Shown here: positions 6,960-21,734 of the stretch, in pieces | How the letters are laid out: every line of letters begins with the position of its first letter | How positions within the stretch are numbered: the first letter of the stretch is position 1 | Source of the DNA: a virus | Virus record (IMG/VR): IMGVR_UViG_3300032240_001388 | Span: 1 to 21,734 of that record | DNA: 21,734 nucleotides | Reading direction: 5' to 3' (one strand) | The notes under the pieces: generated by a model | The model's input: only the letters and a program-made list of their open reading frames with translations | Databases searched by the model: none | Told to the model about the DNA's origin: nothing | Translations under genes and position numbers: made by a program

Positions 6960-7448
6960 TCAGACTCCTGTCATGGCTTGAAGCGCGGCCACGTATTCGG
7001 CCGGGTTTCCGGGCACGACGATGGTGTTGTTGGTGATTTGCTTTCCTGTTGTTGCGTCCTCAAGTCCCAGCAGTTTGGATCGATGGGTCATGATTTTTAG
7101 GACGCTTTCAACTGAACGCGAGTCGCCTGTCATGGCGGCCGGCCACACAGCCCTTTGAAGGGCATCTAGCCTGTTGAGTTCTACTGTCAGCATTTGATGC
7201 TTTGCGCTTTCATCTACAAGCGTGGCTGCATATCTAATGGCTTCAGAGACAAGTCCGACAGCTGCTGTCTCAGTGATCTTTAGGGCTTCGGCTATCTGCC
7301 ACCACGTTTGGCCTTCAAGACGAAGGTCGTGGGCCTTCTTAGCAAGCTTTGCTCGCTGCTCGGCTTCGTTGGCTTCAGTCAGAGCTTTGTTTGTACGAGC
7401 CAATGCTTTGGAGGTGGTGGTGCTTTTTCTGGCCGTCATGCTGGCCAT
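6960..7448 (-). CDS. Helix-turn-helix protein, terminase small subunit-like
   Basis: A 162-residue helical protein. A basic Lys/Ala-rich N-terminus is followed by an HTH (about 43-75: HDLRLEGQTWWQIAEALKIT, then AAVGLVSEAIRYA). A conserved-looking segment comes next (ELNRLDALQRAVWPAAMTGD, VLKIMTHRSKLLGLED). This layout matches actinobacterial phage proteins annotated as small terminase subunits or terminase-like HTH proteins, which bind packaging sites. The large terminase is 10.5 kb away on the opposite strand, so the assignment is tentative; it could be another DNA-binding protein. It overlaps WhiB by 13 nt if the ATG at 7448 is used, or by an ATGA junction with the ATG at 7439. Confidence 0.6.
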   Translation of the reverse strand: MASMTARKSTTTSKALARTNKALTEANEAEQRAKLAKKAHDLRLEGQTWWQIAEALKITETAAVGLVSEAIRYAATLVDESAKHQMLTVELNRLDALQRAVWPAAMTGDSRSVESVLKIMTHRSKLLGLEDATTGKQITNNTIVVPGNPAEYVAALQAMTGV

Positions 7449-7831
7449 CCGTCTTTTACAGCCTGTATGGCTGCTTTGATGGTTTTGTATTCCTTCATGA
7501 CTGCGCGGCGCTCACGCTCGTCAAGACCACCCCAAATTCCCCAGTATTCGCGGGTAATGAGACTGTGCTCGAGGCAATTGAATTGCACGGGGCACTTCTT
7601 GCAGATGTCTTTTGCTTGAGCTCTTTCAGTATGGGTGAGGGGGTGTTCTTCGGTGCCGTAGAAGACTTCTACGGGGACGGTGGTGCATCCTGCGTCGTCA
7701 AGCCATGAGTCCCTTGGAGTGGAGGGCAAGGCAAGTAGCATCGATGGCGTCTTGGCTGGTGCACTTGGCGTACCAGATCGGGTGATGAAGAAGGAGCCAG
7801 GATGCGACTTCTTCTTTGTTCGAGTTGCCAC
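7436..7831 (-). CDS. WhiB-family Fe-S transcription factor
   Basis: A 131-residue protein with the four-Cys WhiB signature: C49 (DDAGC), C77xxC80 (ICKKC), C86 (FNC), then the β-turn GIWGG (98-102) and a basic C-terminal helix (LDERERRAVMKEYKTIK). WhiB proteins bind a [4Fe-4S] cluster and act with the principal sigma factor. They are found only in Actinobacteria and their phages, which makes this the best host marker in the window. Phage copies can rewire host transcription or mimic WhiB2. The start is uncertain: GTG 7831 gives a 134-nt overlap with the RuvC-like gene, while ATG 7741 (MLLALPSTPR...) gives a 101-residue form and a 44-nt overlap. Confidence 0.9.
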   Translation of the reverse strand: MATRTKKKSHPGSFFITRSGTPSAPAKTPSMLLALPSTPRDSWLDDAGCTTVPVEVFYGTEEHPLTHTERAQAKDICKKCPVQFNCLEHSLITREYWGIWGGLDERERRAVMKEYKTIKAAIQAVKDGWPA

Positions 7832-9169: not shown

Positions 9170-9393
9170 TGGCTCAACTCCTTGTATCGATCAGAGAATC
9201 CAGGCAAAAGGTCATTTGCTTGGGCGATGTGTGTGTCAATTTGTTGGGCTGATAAGTAGCCTGCGTACTGCTTCAGGATGTCGAAGCGACCTGCCCATAC
9301 AGCGGCTAGTTGTGTGTCGCAGTTCGGCGGAGCGGTTAGCACTAGCCAATTGGCTGCGTCGTGCGCTGTCTTGGCACGTTGGCTTTTGATCAT
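9166..9393 (-). CDS. Hypothetical protein between polymerase and nuclease, 75 residues
   Basis: From ATG 9393 the protein reads MIKSQRAKTAHDAANWLVLT, then a helical, mildly basic body and the end YKELSQ. The start overlaps the DnaE stop (ATGA) and its own stop overlaps the nuclease start (ATGA), so the three genes are translationally linked. The longer in-frame start upstream would lie deep inside dnaE and is not needed. No family recognised; the linkage suggests a small replication or recombination accessory protein. Confidence 0.65.
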   Translation of the reverse strand: MIKSQRAKTAHDAANWLVLTAPPNCDTQLAAVWAGRFDILKQYAGYLSAQQIDTHIAQANDLLPGFSDRYKELSQ

Positions 9394-12035
9394 GCAACTT
9401 TCTCCTTCGTAGTGGCAAGGTCGCTTAAAGCTCCAACTTCCGCCAGGGCAGCAATAACGCCGCCGCATGCTTCGGGGGAGTGGCCTTTGCGAAGTGACGC
9501 CGATCCTGTAACTGCCCGGCCGTTGACTTTGTTGGCGAGGTCAGCCAGTGACGCAAATGGCGCCTTTTCTTCTAACTCAAGCGCGGCCTTCATGCCAACG
9601 CCTTTGACGCTAGTCAAGCCCTTTCTGATGGCGTTGGATTGGAAGTCGGCCGTGTAGAACGGCCCTGATTTGTTGATGTCCGGCGGTCTGATTGACACCC
9701 CTTGCCTACGTGCGGCAGACAGATAGATGCCTTCCTGATCGTCACCGATGTAGGCGTTCAACTGACCTGTCCAAAACGCGACAGGATGATTTACCTTGAA
9801 CCAGCCCGTGATGTAAGCAACTAGCCCGTACGCGGTGGCGTGAGCGCGGTTAAACGAATACCCCGCAAACTCCAGCAAAGCGTTTTCTAGCCATGCACGG
9901 TCAGCGTCGGAAAGACCCTGAGCGGCCTTTTCTACTTCGGAAATAACCTCGGCCATAACGGACGAAGCATCACCGACGTTCTTGTTTGACGCCTTGATTG
10001 CTTTTCTGGCCTTTTCAATGAACGCAATGGGTAGACCGAAATTGCGCATAATGTCCATGGCCTGCTCCTGAAACAGCATGACCCCGTAGGTGTCTTTCGT
10101 CTGTTCCATGATTACGTCGTGACGTTGAATAATTTCTTGGTCACCTGATTTGCGTGCCATGTAATCATCGGTTGCGCCAGACTTCATAGCGGCAGGTCGG
10201 AACAGTGCTACGGCGGCAATGATGTCGCTCATTTTGGTGACCTTCATTTGCCTGATTCCTCGAGCAGATGCCGGTCCTTCTAACTGAAAAATGCCTTCGA
10301 CCTGCCCTTTGCTGAGCATTTGAAACACATTTTTGTCGTTCATAGGAACAGTCCACGGGTCAACTCCAGTCAGGGCTTTCATCGTTGTGAGCGCCGTGAG
10401 TGTTTTCAGACCCAAGACATCAAGCTTGACCAGCCCCATGGACTCCACGTCTTTCATGGGAAAGGCCGACACCATTGTTTTGCTGGACGCCACCCACTGC
10501 AATGGGAGCCCGGACAGACTGGACTCGTCAGGGGCTACTACTACACCTGCGGCATGCACGCCCACCCCCGAATACGGTGAATGGGATGACAAAACTCGCA
10601 GCTCTTGCATTTCTTCTTCGGGGATTTCGGCGTGTGGATCCCCACCAGTGCGGCGCTGCTGCTGCTTCCACCGCACAATTAATGAACCCTTGGACTCGTC
10701 CTTTTCTGACAAGCCAAGGGCAAGCCATGTTCCGATGCGGTACGTGGTGTACTGCTCGTCAAGCATGGCCAGCACTTCGTCACGCCTTGCATCTTCCACG
10801 TCGATATCGATGTCAGGCATAGACGCCCTGTCGGTTGAAAGGAAACGTTCGAATGGCAGTTTCCACGTGATGGGGTCAAGCCTTGTGATACCAAGCAGGT
10901 AGCACAGAAGCGATCCTGATGCTGATCCTCGAATGTTGTAGGCAATGTTCTGCTTCCTAATCCAGTCACAGACTTTGGCTGTGAATAGCAAATATCCGGA
11001 GAATCCTGCTCCGGCAATGACATCGATTTCTGCGTCAATGCGGTCGCTGTATTCCTTTGTCTTGGACTTAGGAATCTTTCCTTTGATTGACAAGTCAGTC
11101 ATGGCATCGACTGCGCGTCGCAATAGTTCGTCGTCAGGGTCTTTACCTGGCGTGACGTCGGGTATGGCTGCCTTGAAAGTGTCAAGTTCCTTGATGCGCA
11201 CTTTGGCTTTGCTCAGAAGGTCTTGAAGACCTTCCATTCCTGAGTTGTAAACGCGGGGAATGTGATGGTCTTCCATCCACACTGAATCCACCATGTGGTA
11301 GCCGTCGCCGGGGAACACGGCATCGTCAGGGTCGTCTGACCACGAGACTAGGCGCTTCATTGTTTCGTGCGCGCCTCTGTCGATTTCGTGGCAATAGTGC
11401 GAGTCCTGTGTGATGACTGTGGGCAGTCCTAGTGAATCTGCCACAGCTTGCAGGGCTATTGACACTTTGGTGTCGTCATGATCGTTTGTGTAAATCATGT
11501 GGTTTTGGATTTCGACGTAGCACCCTGATCCGAACCAGCCTGCAAGGGATTGGACGACGTTCTTGACGCCACGCATGTCTCCACCAGAGCGCATAAGAGT
11601 GGGGGCTAGACCAAACCAGCAGCCGGTGAGGACGCTGATGCCTTTAGTGGCTCCGTCTTCTGCTGCCTGTGCTAGGTCTGCGAGATCAAGGATGGGCTTG
11701 TATTTGAAGTTTCTTTGTGATGCGTTGACGAGGGCGACAAGGTTTCTGTATCCCTGTTCGGTGGTGGCGACCATTCCAAGGTGCATGGTGGAGGGGCGTG
11801 GTGTGTTGCGGTCGAAGGCAACGTAGGCCTCGACGCCGGGTAGCGGTTCGATGCCGGCTTTGCGTGCTTCTCTGTACAGCTGTGCGGCTCCTCCAAGGGT
11901 TCCGTGGTCAGTGAGGCCAATGGCGGGGTAATTGAGTTCTACTGCCCGATCAACGATGGCCTTGGGGGTGGGTAGTGCGTCTTTTGCGCTGAACATTGAG
12001 TGTGTGTGAACACTCCAGAACGGCATGCCGCTCAC
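9390..12035 (-). CDS. dnaE: DNA polymerase III alpha (DnaE-type) with PHP domain
   Basis: This 881-residue C-family polymerase replicates the phage genome. The N-terminal PHP domain keeps metal-binding residues (H10/H12 in SVHTHS, D43/H44 in LTDHG, E69 in GVEAYV, D211/H213 in QDSHYCH), so it may proofread. The polymerase core has NIRGSASGSLLCYLLGIT (368-385), the catalytic pair D408/D410 in MPDIDIDVED and the third Asp D539 in KLDVLGLKTL. A Y-S-G-V-G-V-H-A-A-G fingers motif follows, and a helix-hairpin-helix near the end (VKGVGMKAAL). At 881 residues it is about 280 shorter than cellular DnaE and lacks the usual OB/tau-binding C-terminus. GTG 12035 has AAGGAG 5 nt upstream. The downstream small gene overlaps by ATGA. 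Confidence 0.96.
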   Translation of the reverse strand: MSGMPFWSVHTHSMFSAKDALPTPKAIVDRAVELNYPAIGLTDHGTLGGAAQLYREARKAGIEPLPGVEAYVAFDRNTPRPSTMHLGMVATTEQGYRNLVALVNASQRNFKYKPILDLADLAQAAEDGATKGISVLTGCWFGLAPTLMRSGGDMRGVKNVVQSLAGWFGSGCYVEIQNHMIYTNDHDDTKVSIALQAVADSLGLPTVITQDSHYCHEIDRGAHETMKRLVSWSDDPDDAVFPGDGYHMVDSVWMEDHHIPRVYNSGMEGLQDLLSKAKVRIKELDTFKAAIPDVTPGKDPDDELLRRAVDAMTDLSIKGKIPKSKTKEYSDRIDAEIDVIAGAGFSGYLLFTAKVCDWIRKQNIAYNIRGSASGSLLCYLLGITRLDPITWKLPFERFLSTDRASMPDIDIDVEDARRDEVLAMLDEQYTTYRIGTWLALGLSEKDESKGSLIVRWKQQQRRTGGDPHAEIPEEEMQELRVLSSHSPYSGVGVHAAGVVVAPDESSLSGLPLQWVASSKTMVSAFPMKDVESMGLVKLDVLGLKTLTALTTMKALTGVDPWTVPMNDKNVFQMLSKGQVEGIFQLEGPASARGIRQMKVTKMSDIIAAVALFRPAAMKSGATDDYMARKSGDQEIIQRHDVIMEQTKDTYGVMLFQEQAMDIMRNFGLPIAFIEKARKAIKASNKNVGDASSVMAEVISEVEKAAQGLSDADRAWLENALLEFAGYSFNRAHATAYGLVAYITGWFKVNHPVAFWTGQLNAYIGDDQEGIYLSAARRQGVSIRPPDINKSGPFYTADFQSNAIRKGLTSVKGVGMKAALELEEKAPFASLADLANKVNGRAVTGSASLRKGHSPEACGGVIAALAEVGALSDLATTKEKVA

Positions 12036-18010: not shown

Positions 18011-19543
18011 ATGACAGAGATCTTGCTGGACGAGAACGAAAATCGGGTTTACCCCAGGCTTCATTTGCCGCGGCCTCCTCAAGACAAGGAGGAACTGTGG
18101 TGGGTGGTTAAGCGTTTGTGGGGCGTGGAAATTCCTCGGGTGAAAGTGTGCCCTGATCACGTAGCACCGTTCGACGCGTTCGCTGAGGGCTATTTCGGCA
18201 ATCAGTCGAACTGGGCTTTGTGGTACGGATCTCGAGGTACAGGTAAATCACTCATGCTGGCATTGCTGGCGTTGACGAAGGCTGCCGTGCTGGAGATCAA
18301 CGTGGCATTGCTGGGTGGCTCCATGGCGCAGTCTCAGAACGTGCAAGAGCACATTGAGAATTTGCTGTTGTTTCCTGCTGCCCCGGTGTATGCGGTGGCG
18401 TCTCAGATTCAGACCCAGATCACTTTTACGGGCGGTAATTGGATTAGGCCGTTGCCGGCGTCTCAAAAGACTGTTCGTGGCCCTCACCCGCAGATGACGG
18501 CTTTGGATGAGATCGATGAGATGGAACGCAAGGTGTATGACGCTGCCATGGGGCAGGCGATGGCCAAACCCAATGCACGGGGGATTGTGATCCCGGAAAT
18601 GGTGGTGGCCTCGTCAACGTGGCAGAACCCCGTGGGGACGTTTCAGTCAGTGCGTGACGAGGCGTTGAGTAAGGGCCTGCCGGTACGGACGTGGTGTTTT
18701 CGTGAAGTGCTAAAAACCGATGACAATCCTTCGGGTTGGATGGACCCGGCGTTCATTGAACGTAAGAGGGCTTCGGTTCCTGCTGAATTGTTTCGCGTGG
18801 AGTATGAGCTGGGTGAGCCTGCTGGCGGATCGCGGGCGTTCGATCTGGAGAAACTCAATAAGTGCTTTGTTGATATGGACACAGTTGATGAGCGGCATGC
18901 CGGTAACGACGACCTGTGGGTGTTCGAGGAGCCTCGTAGTGATGCCTGGTATGCGGTGGGGGCTGACTGGGCTAAGGAAAAGGACAAGACGGTCATTGTG
19001 GTGGCCCGTACGGATGTGAAGCCTCACAGGATTGTGTATTTGAGGCGGGTAAATAAGCGTCCGTGGCCGGAAATGGCTGACATGTTCAATGACGTACTGA
19101 ATTCATATCAGGCTGTGGCAGCTCATGACGGCACAGGTATCGGCAACGTGGTCAATGACTTGATCGATGAACGTGCCCGCAAGATCCTCATGATTGGACG
19201 TGCTCGAACCCAATTGCTGGTGGAGTACATCTCGGCTGTGGAAAACGGCGAGTATCTTCTGCCGTCAAATACGCCTGCATTTGACTCCCACAAGGGGACA
19301 ACAGTGGAAGAGGTGTATGCCCCTGGCCGGTGGAATTCCCATTTGGCTGACGACGTGGCTGCTTTCGCGATCATGCACAATGCGGCTTCAAAGCAGCCTC
19401 CTCCTGCGGGTATGGAGGGAGTTAAGAAGTCTCCGATGAGGTTTGTGAAGATCCCGGACGCTTCGGAGGCGTTTTATGACACTTCTATTTCGGGAGAAGT
19501 TTCCGTTCAGTCTGAAGGTGACAACCCCTATCTTGTGACGTGA
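18011..19543 (+). CDS. terL: Terminase large subunit (packaging ATPase-nuclease)
   Basis: This 510-residue protein drives DNA into the prohead and cuts the concatemer. The ATPase domain has Walker A GSRGTGKS (73-80) in ALWYGSRGTGKSLML and Walker B MTALDEIDEM (D166, E167); SSTWQNPVGT (201-210) fits the coupling motif. The C-terminal RNase-H-like nuclease shows D319 (VGADWAKEKDKT), D373 (AAHDGTGIGN) and D447/D448 (HLADDVAAF). Length is normal for phage TerL. The ATG directly follows the previous stop. The next genes are tail-fibre-like, not portal and capsid, which departs from the usual order. Two inverted copies of the 13-bp motif follow its stop codon. Confidence 0.95.
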   Translation: MTEILLDENENRVYPRLHLPRPPQDKEELWWVVKRLWGVEIPRVKVCPDHVAPFDAFAEGYFGNQSNWALWYGSRGTGKSLMLALLALTKAAVLEINVALLGGSMAQSQNVQEHIENLLLFPAAPVYAVASQIQTQITFTGGNWIRPLPASQKTVRGPHPQMTALDEIDEMERKVYDAAMGQAMAKPNARGIVIPEMVVASSTWQNPVGTFQSVRDEALSKGLPVRTWCFREVLKTDDNPSGWMDPAFIERKRASVPAELFRVEYELGEPAGGSRAFDLEKLNKCFVDMDTVDERHAGNDDLWVFEEPRSDAWYAVGADWAKEKDKTVIVVARTDVKPHRIVYLRRVNKRPWPEMADMFNDVLNSYQAVAAHDGTGIGNVVNDLIDERARKILMIGRARTQLLVEYISAVENGEYLLPSNTPAFDSHKGTTVEEVYAPGRWNSHLADDVAAFAIMHNAASKQPPPAGMEGVKKSPMRFVKIPDASEAFYDTSISGEVSVQSEGDNPYLVT

Positions 19544-19905: not shown

Positions 19906-20241
19906 GTGGCTACTACGTTTAAGCGCCTAGGCGCAATCACTTCAAGTGGAACTTTAGGCACAGCCGACACCCTGTACACGGCCCCAGGCGCGGGCGGTGT
20001 TGTTGTCAGCACCTTGACGGTTTGCAACCAGTCAACGGCTTCTGTTACCTACCGCATTTGCATCAGCACAACCACGTCTTTTCAAACGACGGGCTACATC
20101 ATTTATGAGGCAACCCTTCTTGGAAATGAAGGGGTTGGAATTACCTACGGAATAACACTTGATCCGACAAACAAGTACCTCTTGTGTTCGGCATCTTCAT
20201 CATCGGTTTCTTTCACGGCTTTTGGAAGCGAGATCTCCTAA
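19906..20241 (+). CDS. β-rich virion/tail-like protein, 111 residues
   Basis: Starts at GTG 19906, one base after the previous stop. The protein reads MATTFKRLGAITSSGTLGTA, DTLYTAPGAGGVVVSTLTVC and NQSTASVTYRICIS, a pattern often seen in small virion proteins of marine and freshwater phages (FKRLGA, LYTVP-type, ST(L/I)xVCN motifs). It is compact, Ser/Thr-rich and lacks a signal peptide. Its last base is shared with the next start (TAATG). Probable tail or capsid decoration role; name not assignable. Confidence 0.7.
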   Translation: MATTFKRLGAITSSGTLGTADTLYTAPGAGGVVVSTLTVCNQSTASVTYRICISTTTSFQTTGYIIYEATLLGNEGVGITYGITLDPTNKYLLCSASSSSVSFTAFGSEIS

Positions 20242-20642
20242 TGTCATACGGATCGAGTAAATCAACCAGCACAGCAGTCGGTTTGTCGGAAGCCATTACT
20301 GCGTACACCATCACTTCAAACACTCTTACGATGCCTTTGGGCAACGGAAACGTGGGGCGCGTCAGCACTGCTCCTTCTGCCAACTTCACAGTCAATCTTA
20401 CTGGCGTTCCTACAACGGACGGCCAAGTCATTACCGTAACGATCTTTGTTACGCAGGGAGCTACGGGGTATTACCCTAGCGCGTTTCAAATTGACGGAAA
20501 TGCACAAACCATTAAGTGGGCAAACTCAGCGGCTCCGACGCCAACCTCTTCTGCTGGAAAGATTGACATCTTTACTTTCAGTCTGGTTCGACTCAGCAGC
20601 GCTTGGACTGTCTTTGGTACTGGCGTTTTGAATATGGGTTAG
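20241..20642 (+). CDS. β-rich virion/tail-fibre-like protein, 133 residues
   Basis: From ATG 20241 the product begins MSYGSSKSTSTAVGLSEAIT and holds the run FTVNLTGVPTTDGQVITVTI, FVTQGATGYYPSAFQIDG, IKWANSAAPTPTSSAGKIDI, FTFSLVRLSSAWTVFGTG. This NLTGVPTTDG ... QGATGY.P ... IKWA ... W-T-V-x-G order is common in virion-associated proteins of aquatic phages, usually near tail fibres. Translation is coupled to the preceding gene by a shared base. No enzymatic residues are seen. Confidence 0.72.
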   Translation: MSYGSSKSTSTAVGLSEAITAYTITSNTLTMPLGNGNVGRVSTAPSANFTVNLTGVPTTDGQVITVTIFVTQGATGYYPSAFQIDGNAQTIKWANSAAPTPTSSAGKIDIFTFSLVRLSSAWTVFGTGVLNMG

Positions 20643-20650
20643 GAGTATCA

Positions 20651-21202
20651 ATGACCCTGCTATCACGCGTTGGCGGCACCGTTGGGCCGGTGGGACGCAA
20701 GTACACAAATCCTTTGAGCTTTGCAACAGGTGGCGCCACGCAAACATATACAAAAGGCGGGAACACGTGGCAGTCACACACTTTTACCGGATCTGGTCAA
20801 TTTGTTGTGGTGTCCAATTCCCAACCTTTTACTGTCCTTGTTGTCGGGGGCGGTCAAGGTGGCGGCTACGACCACCCTGCTGATACTCGATACAACGGTG
20901 CAAGTGGTGGGGCGGTTGTGTCCACTTCAATTACGCCAACTATTGGAACAGTGAACGTGACTGTTGGCGGCGGTGGCGGCGGCGGGCAAGGAACTCACGA
21001 ATCAGGTGGCCCGGGCGGTCTTTCATCGTTTGGCGCCTACTTGTCGTCTTCGGGTGGCGGAGGAGTAACCACTGACGTCCAAACTGGAACCAACGTTTCC
21101 TATGCCAATTCAACGTACGGAGCTGGTGGCCCTGTTGGATATTTGACCCCTGGCGGCAGCGGTCGTTCAGGTGTTGTGATTATTGCTTACAGGCTTTCGT
21201 GA
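20651..21202 (+). CDS. Glycine-rich tail-fibre-like protein, 183 residues
   Basis: From ATG 20651, with AGGAG at 20641-20645, the protein has a short N-terminus (MTLLSRVGGTVGPVGRKYTN), then WQSHTFTGSGQFVV and the Gly-rich block QPFTVLVVGGGQGGGYD. TVNVTVGGGGGGGQGTHESG follows, and it ends GRSGVVIIAYRLS. The VLVVGGG ... GG(S)GVVIIAYR frame is the hallmark of glycine-rich domains in phage tail fibres and adhesins. It probably contributes to receptor contact. The halogenase-family gene begins 1 nt after its stop. Confidence 0.78.
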   Translation: MTLLSRVGGTVGPVGRKYTNPLSFATGGATQTYTKGGNTWQSHTFTGSGQFVVVSNSQPFTVLVVGGGQGGGYDHPADTRYNGASGGAVVSTSITPTIGTVNVTVGGGGGGGQGTHESGGPGGLSSFGAYLSSSGGGGVTTDVQTGTNVSYANSTYGAGGPVGYLTPGGSGRSGVVIIAYRLS

Positions 21203-21203
21203 C

Positions 21204-21734
21204 ATGAATGTTGTCATTGTCGGGGGCGGAACAGCAGGTTGGATTACTGCCCTGTTTTTCCTCAAAACATATCCACAGCATTCATTAACAGTTATTGAAA
21301 GTGATGAGATTGGTGTTTTGGGGGCCGGCGAGGGCACAACTCCAAACTTCCCTCACATCATGAAGTCTCTTGACATACCAGTGAGCAAGTTAATTTCTGA
21401 ATGCAATGCAACAATCAAAAATGGCATCAAATTTACTAATTGGAATCCAGATAGGGCGTTTTATTACCCATTTCTTGCTCACGCTGGCTTGGGTGAACAG
21501 GCCTATTTGCATCGATACGGCACTAATCTGCCCACGTATATGTCGCCCATTCTTGCGGCGATGAATTACCAAGAGTCATTTCAGTATGATTTGACCACCA
21601 AAATATCTGAGCGCGGTCTGGTTCCTCTTTTTGACAAGGGCTTTTCAGAACCAGAAGACGTAATATCCGGATGCAGTGTTGTTACTGAGTGGGCGTTGCA
21701 TTTTGACGCAAGAAAAGTAGCTTCCTTTTTACGC
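21204..21734 (+). CDS. Flavin-dependent tryptophan halogenase family protein, N-terminal part (runs off right edge)
   Basis: The visible 177 residues start MNVVIVGGGTAGWITALFFL, with the FAD-binding GxGxxGW motif. Next comes LGAGEGTTPNF (39-49), equivalent to the G-x-G-E-(A/G)-T-x-P signature. ISECNATIKNGIKFTNW (64-80) follows, where K72 aligns with the halogenase active-site lysine (K79 in PrnA/RebH). WALHFDARKVASFLR is at the edge. The enzyme family uses FADH2, O2 and halide to halogenate indole-like substrates. The W-x-W-x-I-P motif would lie beyond the window. ATG 21204 follows the tail protein stop by 1 nt, no Shine-Dalgarno. G+C is about 44% by hand count (21241-21660), below its neighbours, suggesting transfer. 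Substrate unknown; it could have lost halogenase activity. Confidence 0.88.
   Translation, partial: MNVVIVGGGTAGWITALFFLKTYPQHSLTVIESDEIGVLGAGEGTTPNFPHIMKSLDIPVSKLISECNATIKNGIKFTNWNPDRAFYYPFLAHAGLGEQAYLHRYGTNLPTYMSPILAAMNYQESFQYDLTTKISERGLVPLFDKGFSEPEDVISGCSVVTEWALHFDARKVASFLR

Follow-up and report, generated by a model that had tools for sequence, protein, structure and literature searches.

A halogenase gene downstream of tail-fibre-like genes

Flavin-dependent halogenases add a halogen (chlorine, bromine or iodine) to ring compounds, and the natural substrate of the viral members of this family is apparently unsettled in the literature. The locus described here, a halogenase gene that directly follows a tail-fibre-like gene in an uncultured phage, raises the question of what such an enzyme modifies during infection. 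The window, i.e. the whole stretch of DNA that was analyzed, is an entire virus record of 21,734 bases, and the record itself stops at position 21734. Considering all the evidence jointly, we regard as probable, albeit with reservations, that the phage encodes a complete, group C FAD-dependent halogenase within a three-gene block of low G+C content, and that a small membrane protein encoded in this block, denoted SM, is the likely functional partner of the enzyme.

The open reading frame at positions 21204..21734 (plus strand), open to the record end, encodes the N-terminal 177 codons of the halogenase. Residues 1-177 match the Pfam family PF04820 (Trp_halogenase) with E = 7.2e-29 and 101 bits (cut-off 21), far beyond chance, in line with the earlier note, which had claimed a halogenase-family enzyme in a phage. 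The last 123 bases of the window (21612..21734) are exactly identical to the first 123 bases of the record IMGVR_UViG_3300032240_002983 (L002; 9,707 bases), found in the IMG/VR scan, and L002 was the sole match of a 61-base piece of this overlap among the searched IMG/VR records, from which the record of the window itself was apparently excluded. Read-level proof aside, this exact end-to-end overlap suggests that the two contigs join; across it, the halogenase gene is complete (506 codons, 506 aa), with the remainder located at L002:124-1113. This continuation matches PF04820 in the profile search (253 bits, 7e-75) as well as phrog_2928 in the PHROG search (1e-69), so that PF04820 matches cover both parts and assign the protein to the family along its whole length. 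When the full 506-aa protein was compared to solved structures, 30 PDB chains were found at E ≤ 0.001, all of them halogenase-family entries, with 9luq and 8fov as the best (9e-62) and VirX1 ranking among the last hits. Phages were already known to encode halogenases (phrog_2928 is named tryptophan halogenase), and the present enzyme is a further member; new here are the AspH-like oxygenase and SM downstream of the halogenase, and the recurrent pairing of SM with halogenases.

Active-site motifs and enzyme class

The N-terminal signatures listed in the earlier note, GGGTAGW, GEGTTP and ECNATIKNGIKFTNW, are all present in the 21204-21734 frame. GGGTAG (residues 7-12; 21222..21239, plus strand) is the FAD-binding GxGxxG motif, in which G7, G8, G9 and G12 are invariant across 19 aligned relatives. 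The active-site lysine expected in the N-terminal block is K72 (codon at 21417..21419, plus strand), which lines up with the catalytic lysine in halogenases of solved structure, K79 in PrnA and VirX1 numbering (alignments to PDB chains). The rest of the gene, now at full length and with solved halogenases as best matches, contains the W-x-W-x-I-P motif, the absence of which would, by the note, have spoken against a halogenase, as GWMWKIP (residues 272-278, on L002), and E346 sits within an EPLEATS signature; K72, W273, W275, P278 and E346 are invariant in the 19 aligned relatives.

In active halogenases, the tunnel motif is F-x-x-P-x-x-S-x-G (PMC8407142); here, it reads FIEPLEATS, with the F, the P and the catalytic E kept, and S replaced by A (A347) and G by S (S349). 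The PLEATS form is frequent among the relatives, the bacterial set of which had been selected using the PLEATS pattern. The two replacements are what could be expected if the protein were a flavin monooxygenase that shares the fold but does not halogenate, and instead adds a hydroxyl group to a residue within a protein, in the manner of QhpG, LodB or GoxB. The family does match the LodB, GoxB and QhpG models, weakly and far under their cut-offs, and the small tryptophan-rich protein encoded nearby recalls the case of QhpG, which acts on a small subunit. However, K72, E346 and GWMWKIP are all retained, and every relative of solved structure that the sequence search found is a halogenase-family entry; we consider a monooxygenase highly doubtful.

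Neither of the published Trp4 patterns, which in groups A and B denote binding of free tryptophan (PMC8269204), was detected by motif search in the window protein and 18 relatives (19 sequences), and the Trp2 position is occupied by YPF, as in VirX1 and KrmI, instead of H-P-F. Because the Trp4 motif is absent, the enzyme falls, under the scheme of PMC8269204, into group C, which includes BrvH (indole), MibH (peptide), KrmI and VirX1. Put most cautiously, an actinophage carries as cargo a group C flavin halogenase that looks intact and presumably draws on FADH2 of the host. Given the missing Trp4 motif, 'tryptophan halogenase', the name used in the earlier note, is misleading when read as a substrate call, and free tryptophan is probably not the substrate.

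These observations bear on the possibility that the enzyme halogenates a small molecule, whether free indole, tryptophan or some other metabolite of the host, and thereby alters signalling or poisons competitors. The fold and motifs are shared with PrnA, RebH and other metabolite halogenases, and BrvH, also of group C, is able to halogenate indole in vitro (PMC8269204). Apart from the missing Trp4 motif, however, the two contigs contain no biosynthetic gene cluster, and the partner flavin reductase that had been anticipated did not materialize: no PF01613 match was obtained on these possibly partial contigs or in 11 related records, whereas the controls were positive. Small-molecule halogenation would also leave SM and the AspH-like oxygenase unexplained, and appears to us somewhat unlikely. 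BrvH, MibH and other group C halogenases share the catalytic motifs and likewise lack Trp4 (PMC8269204), but the window halogenase differs from BrvH and MibH in being a phage gene, in the surroundings of which no cluster for peptide or metabolite biosynthesis was seen.

A special likeness to VirX1 (cyanophage Syn10 CPUG_00131, PDB 6QGM), the phage-borne example named in the earlier note, is not supported beyond features of the class. VirX1 is likewise a phage-borne group C halogenase and shares with the window enzyme the catalytic lysine, W-x-W-x-I-P, and Y-P-F in place of H-P-F. However, the two proteins are only 29% identical and separated by a strongly supported branch, VirX1 has PLESTG rather than PLEATS, bacterial halogenases score higher, and, unlike the window phage, the Syn10 genome has no detectable SM. 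A VirX1-type enzyme was accordingly rejected, the window protein lying outside the VirX1 clade on the tree. In the Syn10 record, the gene with the VirX1 motifs (CPUG_00131; L114:4986-6578) still bears the annotation 'hypothetical protein'; it adjoins a second halogenase gene.

Gene neighbourhood and the low-G+C block

The rightward gene block that leads to the halogenase begins with a probable terminase large subunit (18011..19543, plus strand), a reading from gene order and sequence, as the Pfam search gave no match for this gene. Two tail-fibre-like frames follow on the plus strand. The first (20184..20642), which probably starts at the ATG at 20242, matches phrog_22179, tail fiber protein (4.5e-5), and phrog_5906, of unnamed function (3e-13). 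The second, glycine-rich and tail-fibre-like (20651..21202), matches Gly_rich_2 (25.5 bits, barely above the cut-off of 24.3), phrog_863, tail fiber assembly (2e-6), and phrog_21412, tail fiber protein (1.5e-4), and ends one nucleotide before the halogenase ATG, just as had been described. On the minus strand, a WhiB-like regulator is encoded at 7436..7831 (PF02467, 1.5e-18); WhiB is an actinophage indicator (PMC10202952), and its presence therefore points to an actinobacterial host. The window also encodes a DNA polymerase III alpha subunit with a PHP domain (9390-12035).

The next gene after the halogenase encodes an Asp/Asn beta-hydroxylase-like (AspH-like) 2-oxoglutarate oxygenase (L002:1113-1712), the start of which overlaps the halogenase stop (TGATG). 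Its match to PF05118 (Asp_Arg_Hydrox) is weak but above the threshold (23.8 bits, cut-off 22.6), and H84, D86, H138 and R148 (H-x-D...H...R) are shared without exception by relatives scoring 47-51 bits; the predicted structure (pLDDT 41) is too poor for use. After this gene comes that of SM (L002:1745-1990), an 81-aa tryptophan-rich membrane protein, such that, in the window phage, the AspH-like gene separates the halogenase from SM. The lower G+C of the halogenase gene that had been reported is borne out (44.1% for the 21204-21734 piece compared to 53.3% for the window), and extends to the three genes together (44.7%, compared to 54.0 ± 3.1% for the 36 other ORFs of both contigs). The halogenase, the AspH-like oxygenase and SM thus appear to have arrived as one low-G+C block, which would have been inserted after the tail-fibre genes and is probably co-expressed with them.

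Further downstream, L002 encodes collagen-like proteins, a GT2/TPR protein (L002:5588-6622) and a ferritin-like (Dps-like) protein (L002:9337-9705; PF00210, 6e-15). The GT2/TPR protein is homologous to genes beside halogenases in two other loci, located directly 3' of the halogenase in the phage DSL-LC01 (L003) and directly after a halogenase-SM pair in L124, and is a possible further recurring neighbour of halogenases.

Relatives and the case for virion modification

Relatives of the halogenase were found in 24 further viral loci (36-50% identity in the best segment); phrog_2928 and the uncultured-phage halogenases L010-L031 belong to the same family, share EPLEATS and are 37-44% identical over the full length. 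Among cellular organisms, the nearest relatives come from gammaproteobacteria (40-44% identity) and were recovered by an alignment scan, which was required because a single-sequence scan of bacterial genomes detected no close relatives. In most of the near viral relatives, the halogenase is away from tail genes: beside an APS kinase, DUF2061 and a conserved 76-aa protein, beside ribonucleotide reductase and an integrase, or beside holin-like genes; virion-like genes are the neighbours in others (some of these names were read from sequence alone). The positions are equally varied in isolate phages, as in HTVC008M, in which the halogenase adjoins the terminase. Given these varied places, the tail-gene neighbourhood is not conserved, and of the virion gene cluster proposed in the earlier note, the adjacency to a tail-like gene stands, whereas a virion neighbourhood common to the relatives does not.

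These varied positions bear on virion modification, whereby the halogenase, the oxygenase and the glycosyltransferase would decorate tail proteins, either tail fibres or collagen-like ones, with an effect on host recognition or stability. Locally, the arrangement is suggestive, with the halogenase directly after a tail-fibre-like gene and the collagen-like and GT2/TPR genes downstream on L002. The lake actinophage DSL-LC01 (OQ999401) likewise has collagen-like genes and a homologous glycosyltransferase near its halogenase, in the order collagen, collagen, hypothetical gene, halogenase, glycosyltransferase, and the Syn10 halogenases immediately follow genes with a gp37-gp40-like annotation. The DSL-LC01 enzyme, however, is 31% identical to that of the window phage, and no SM was found in DSL-LC01. 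Because the halogenases of most relatives are not beside tail genes, and the gene that accompanies the halogenase from lineage to lineage is SM rather than a tail gene (see below), modification of tail proteins, while possible, has dropped out of favour; its support is the local position in some phages, and we consider it rather unlikely.

In the DSL-LC01 halogenase (L003:7980-9551), GWVSKIP and IEPLDFSS replace the usual motifs, and this protein may therefore be inactive as a halogenase.

Association between SM and halogenases

SM is a previously unnamed family that recurs in many uncultured phages. Among 40 sequences, 36 of the 81 positions are invariant, including W7, W36, W37, W51 and W68, and the predicted fold consists of three helices at modest confidence (pLDDT 69). 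No family match was found in Pfam, NCBIfam, PADLOC or PHROG, and none in 50,697 phage records, the isolate-phage entries included; comparison of the SM structure to viral structures gave no significant match, and weak sequence matches to PDB entries were judged to be due to chance.

SM was first noticed in five loci, adjoining the halogenase gene or two genes away from it. For the scans, which return the best 80 of several hundred loci, genes were called with simple ORF rules. A halogenase was present within 4 kb of SM in 61 of the 80 loci of the first scan and in 23 of the 50 further loci of a second scan seeded with an SM that lacks an adjoining halogenase (some of these loci being re-cut first-scan contigs), i.e. 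in 84 of the 130 pooled loci, fractions that, coming from best-scoring loci, are not population estimates. After clustering at 90% nucleotide identity, 48 of the 65 pooled clusters included a halogenase (counted per scan, with a few contigs counted double), and so did 34 of the 42 clusters from the best 80 loci of the first scan alone. The distance between the two genes does not exceed 200 bp in 82 of the 84 loci, with the halogenase either upstream or downstream. As a control, we used 80 loci from a related phage group, centred on the ssb-like gene found next to SM where halogenases are absent, and none of these contained a halogenase (Fisher p about 5e-12 on clusters, which are incompletely independent).

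The SM-linked halogenases do not form a single lineage. Strongly supported branches split them into at least 3 groups, with 13 in the VirX1 clade, and 7 label changes are required on the tree, at least 3 of which are forced by such branches. Since halogenases from widely separated lineages have SM next to them, SM is most likely a functional partner of these enzymes. Conversely, SM was not found in seven halogenase-carrying isolate phages, and, unlike the window phage, L010-L020 and several other relatives carry a halogenase without SM in the sequence covered, so that SM is not required by halogenases generally.

If SM and the halogenase merely travelled together through a shared cargo hot spot, SM might be an unrelated holin-like or superinfection protein. 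In favour of this, SM also occurs between primase-like and ssb-like genes with no halogenase in view, and APS kinase and the 76-aa protein likewise cluster near halogenases. SM loci without a visible halogenase (46 of 130) are mostly fragments, however, and among four contigs of at least 30 kb with SM but no neighbouring halogenase, three carry a halogenase elsewhere, compared to 1 of the 16 large control contigs (p about 0.013, in a comparison chosen after seeing the data). Together with the adjacency on either side and to deeply separate halogenases, this argues against mere co-travel, to which we assign a low, though appreciable, likelihood.

An AspH-like gene is present in 17 of the 84 loci with SM and a halogenase, and in none of the 46 SM-only loci or the 80 controls; among the loci examined, it is immediately 3' of the halogenase solely in the window phage. 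The idea that halogenases are generally linked to 2-oxoglutarate oxygenases of whatever family was rejected: the two are directly adjacent in eight loci (L002, L004, L033, L034, L036, L037, L042 and L047), but such oxygenases are common in marine phages, which leaves the adjacency suggestive at most. The gammaproteobacterial halogenases of L034 and L036 (42% identity) are likewise paired with a 2-oxoglutarate oxygenase, but one of a different family (2OG-FeII_Oxy_3), on bacterial contigs and without SM; a TonB-receptor-like gene, read from sequence, is near that of L034.

A possible mechanism

The family, the catalytic motifs, the gene order and the association of SM with halogenases are direct observations, whereas halogenase activity, halide, substrate and the role of SM are inferred. 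By analogy with the family, a host reductase would supply FADH2, which would react with O2 and a halide near the flavin; hypohalite would then travel down the tunnel, along the W-x-W-x-I-P segment, as far as K72, where an aromatic ring positioned close to K72 and E346 would be halogenated. SM could act as a membrane anchor or scaffold, or could itself be the protein whose aromatic residues are modified. The most specific version, in which SM is the dedicated target or an obligate membrane partner and its conserved aromatic residues (such as W7, W36, W37, W51 and W68) are halogenated during infection, with additional hydroxylation by the AspH-like enzyme in a subset of phages, we consider fairly improbable. 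Whether anchor, regulator or substrate, SM is the best available lead to the role of the halogenase: by tracking halogenases across lineages, it provides a concrete candidate for a partner or substrate, and a reason to seek halogenated proteins in infected cells, beyond halogenated metabolites. If true, halogenation of SM would amount to a phage-encoded system for modifying proteins of a kind not known before.

Other recurring neighbours

The 76-aa protein (L014:2840-3070 and relatives), the family of which is unnamed, often overlaps the start of the halogenase gene by 4 bases; it is present in 12 of the 20 relatives without SM, in 30 of the 84 loci with SM and a halogenase, and in none of the 80 controls. 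APS kinase genes occur in the vicinity of many phage halogenases, and one halogenase has a sulfotransferase gene immediately upstream (L014:1741-2529; L012:6742-7587), a possible sulfation module. Three loci binned as Verrucomicrobia or Bacteroidetes (L042, L043 and L047) nevertheless appear phage-like and carry a halogenase, 2-oxoglutarate oxygenases and sulfotransferase-like genes.
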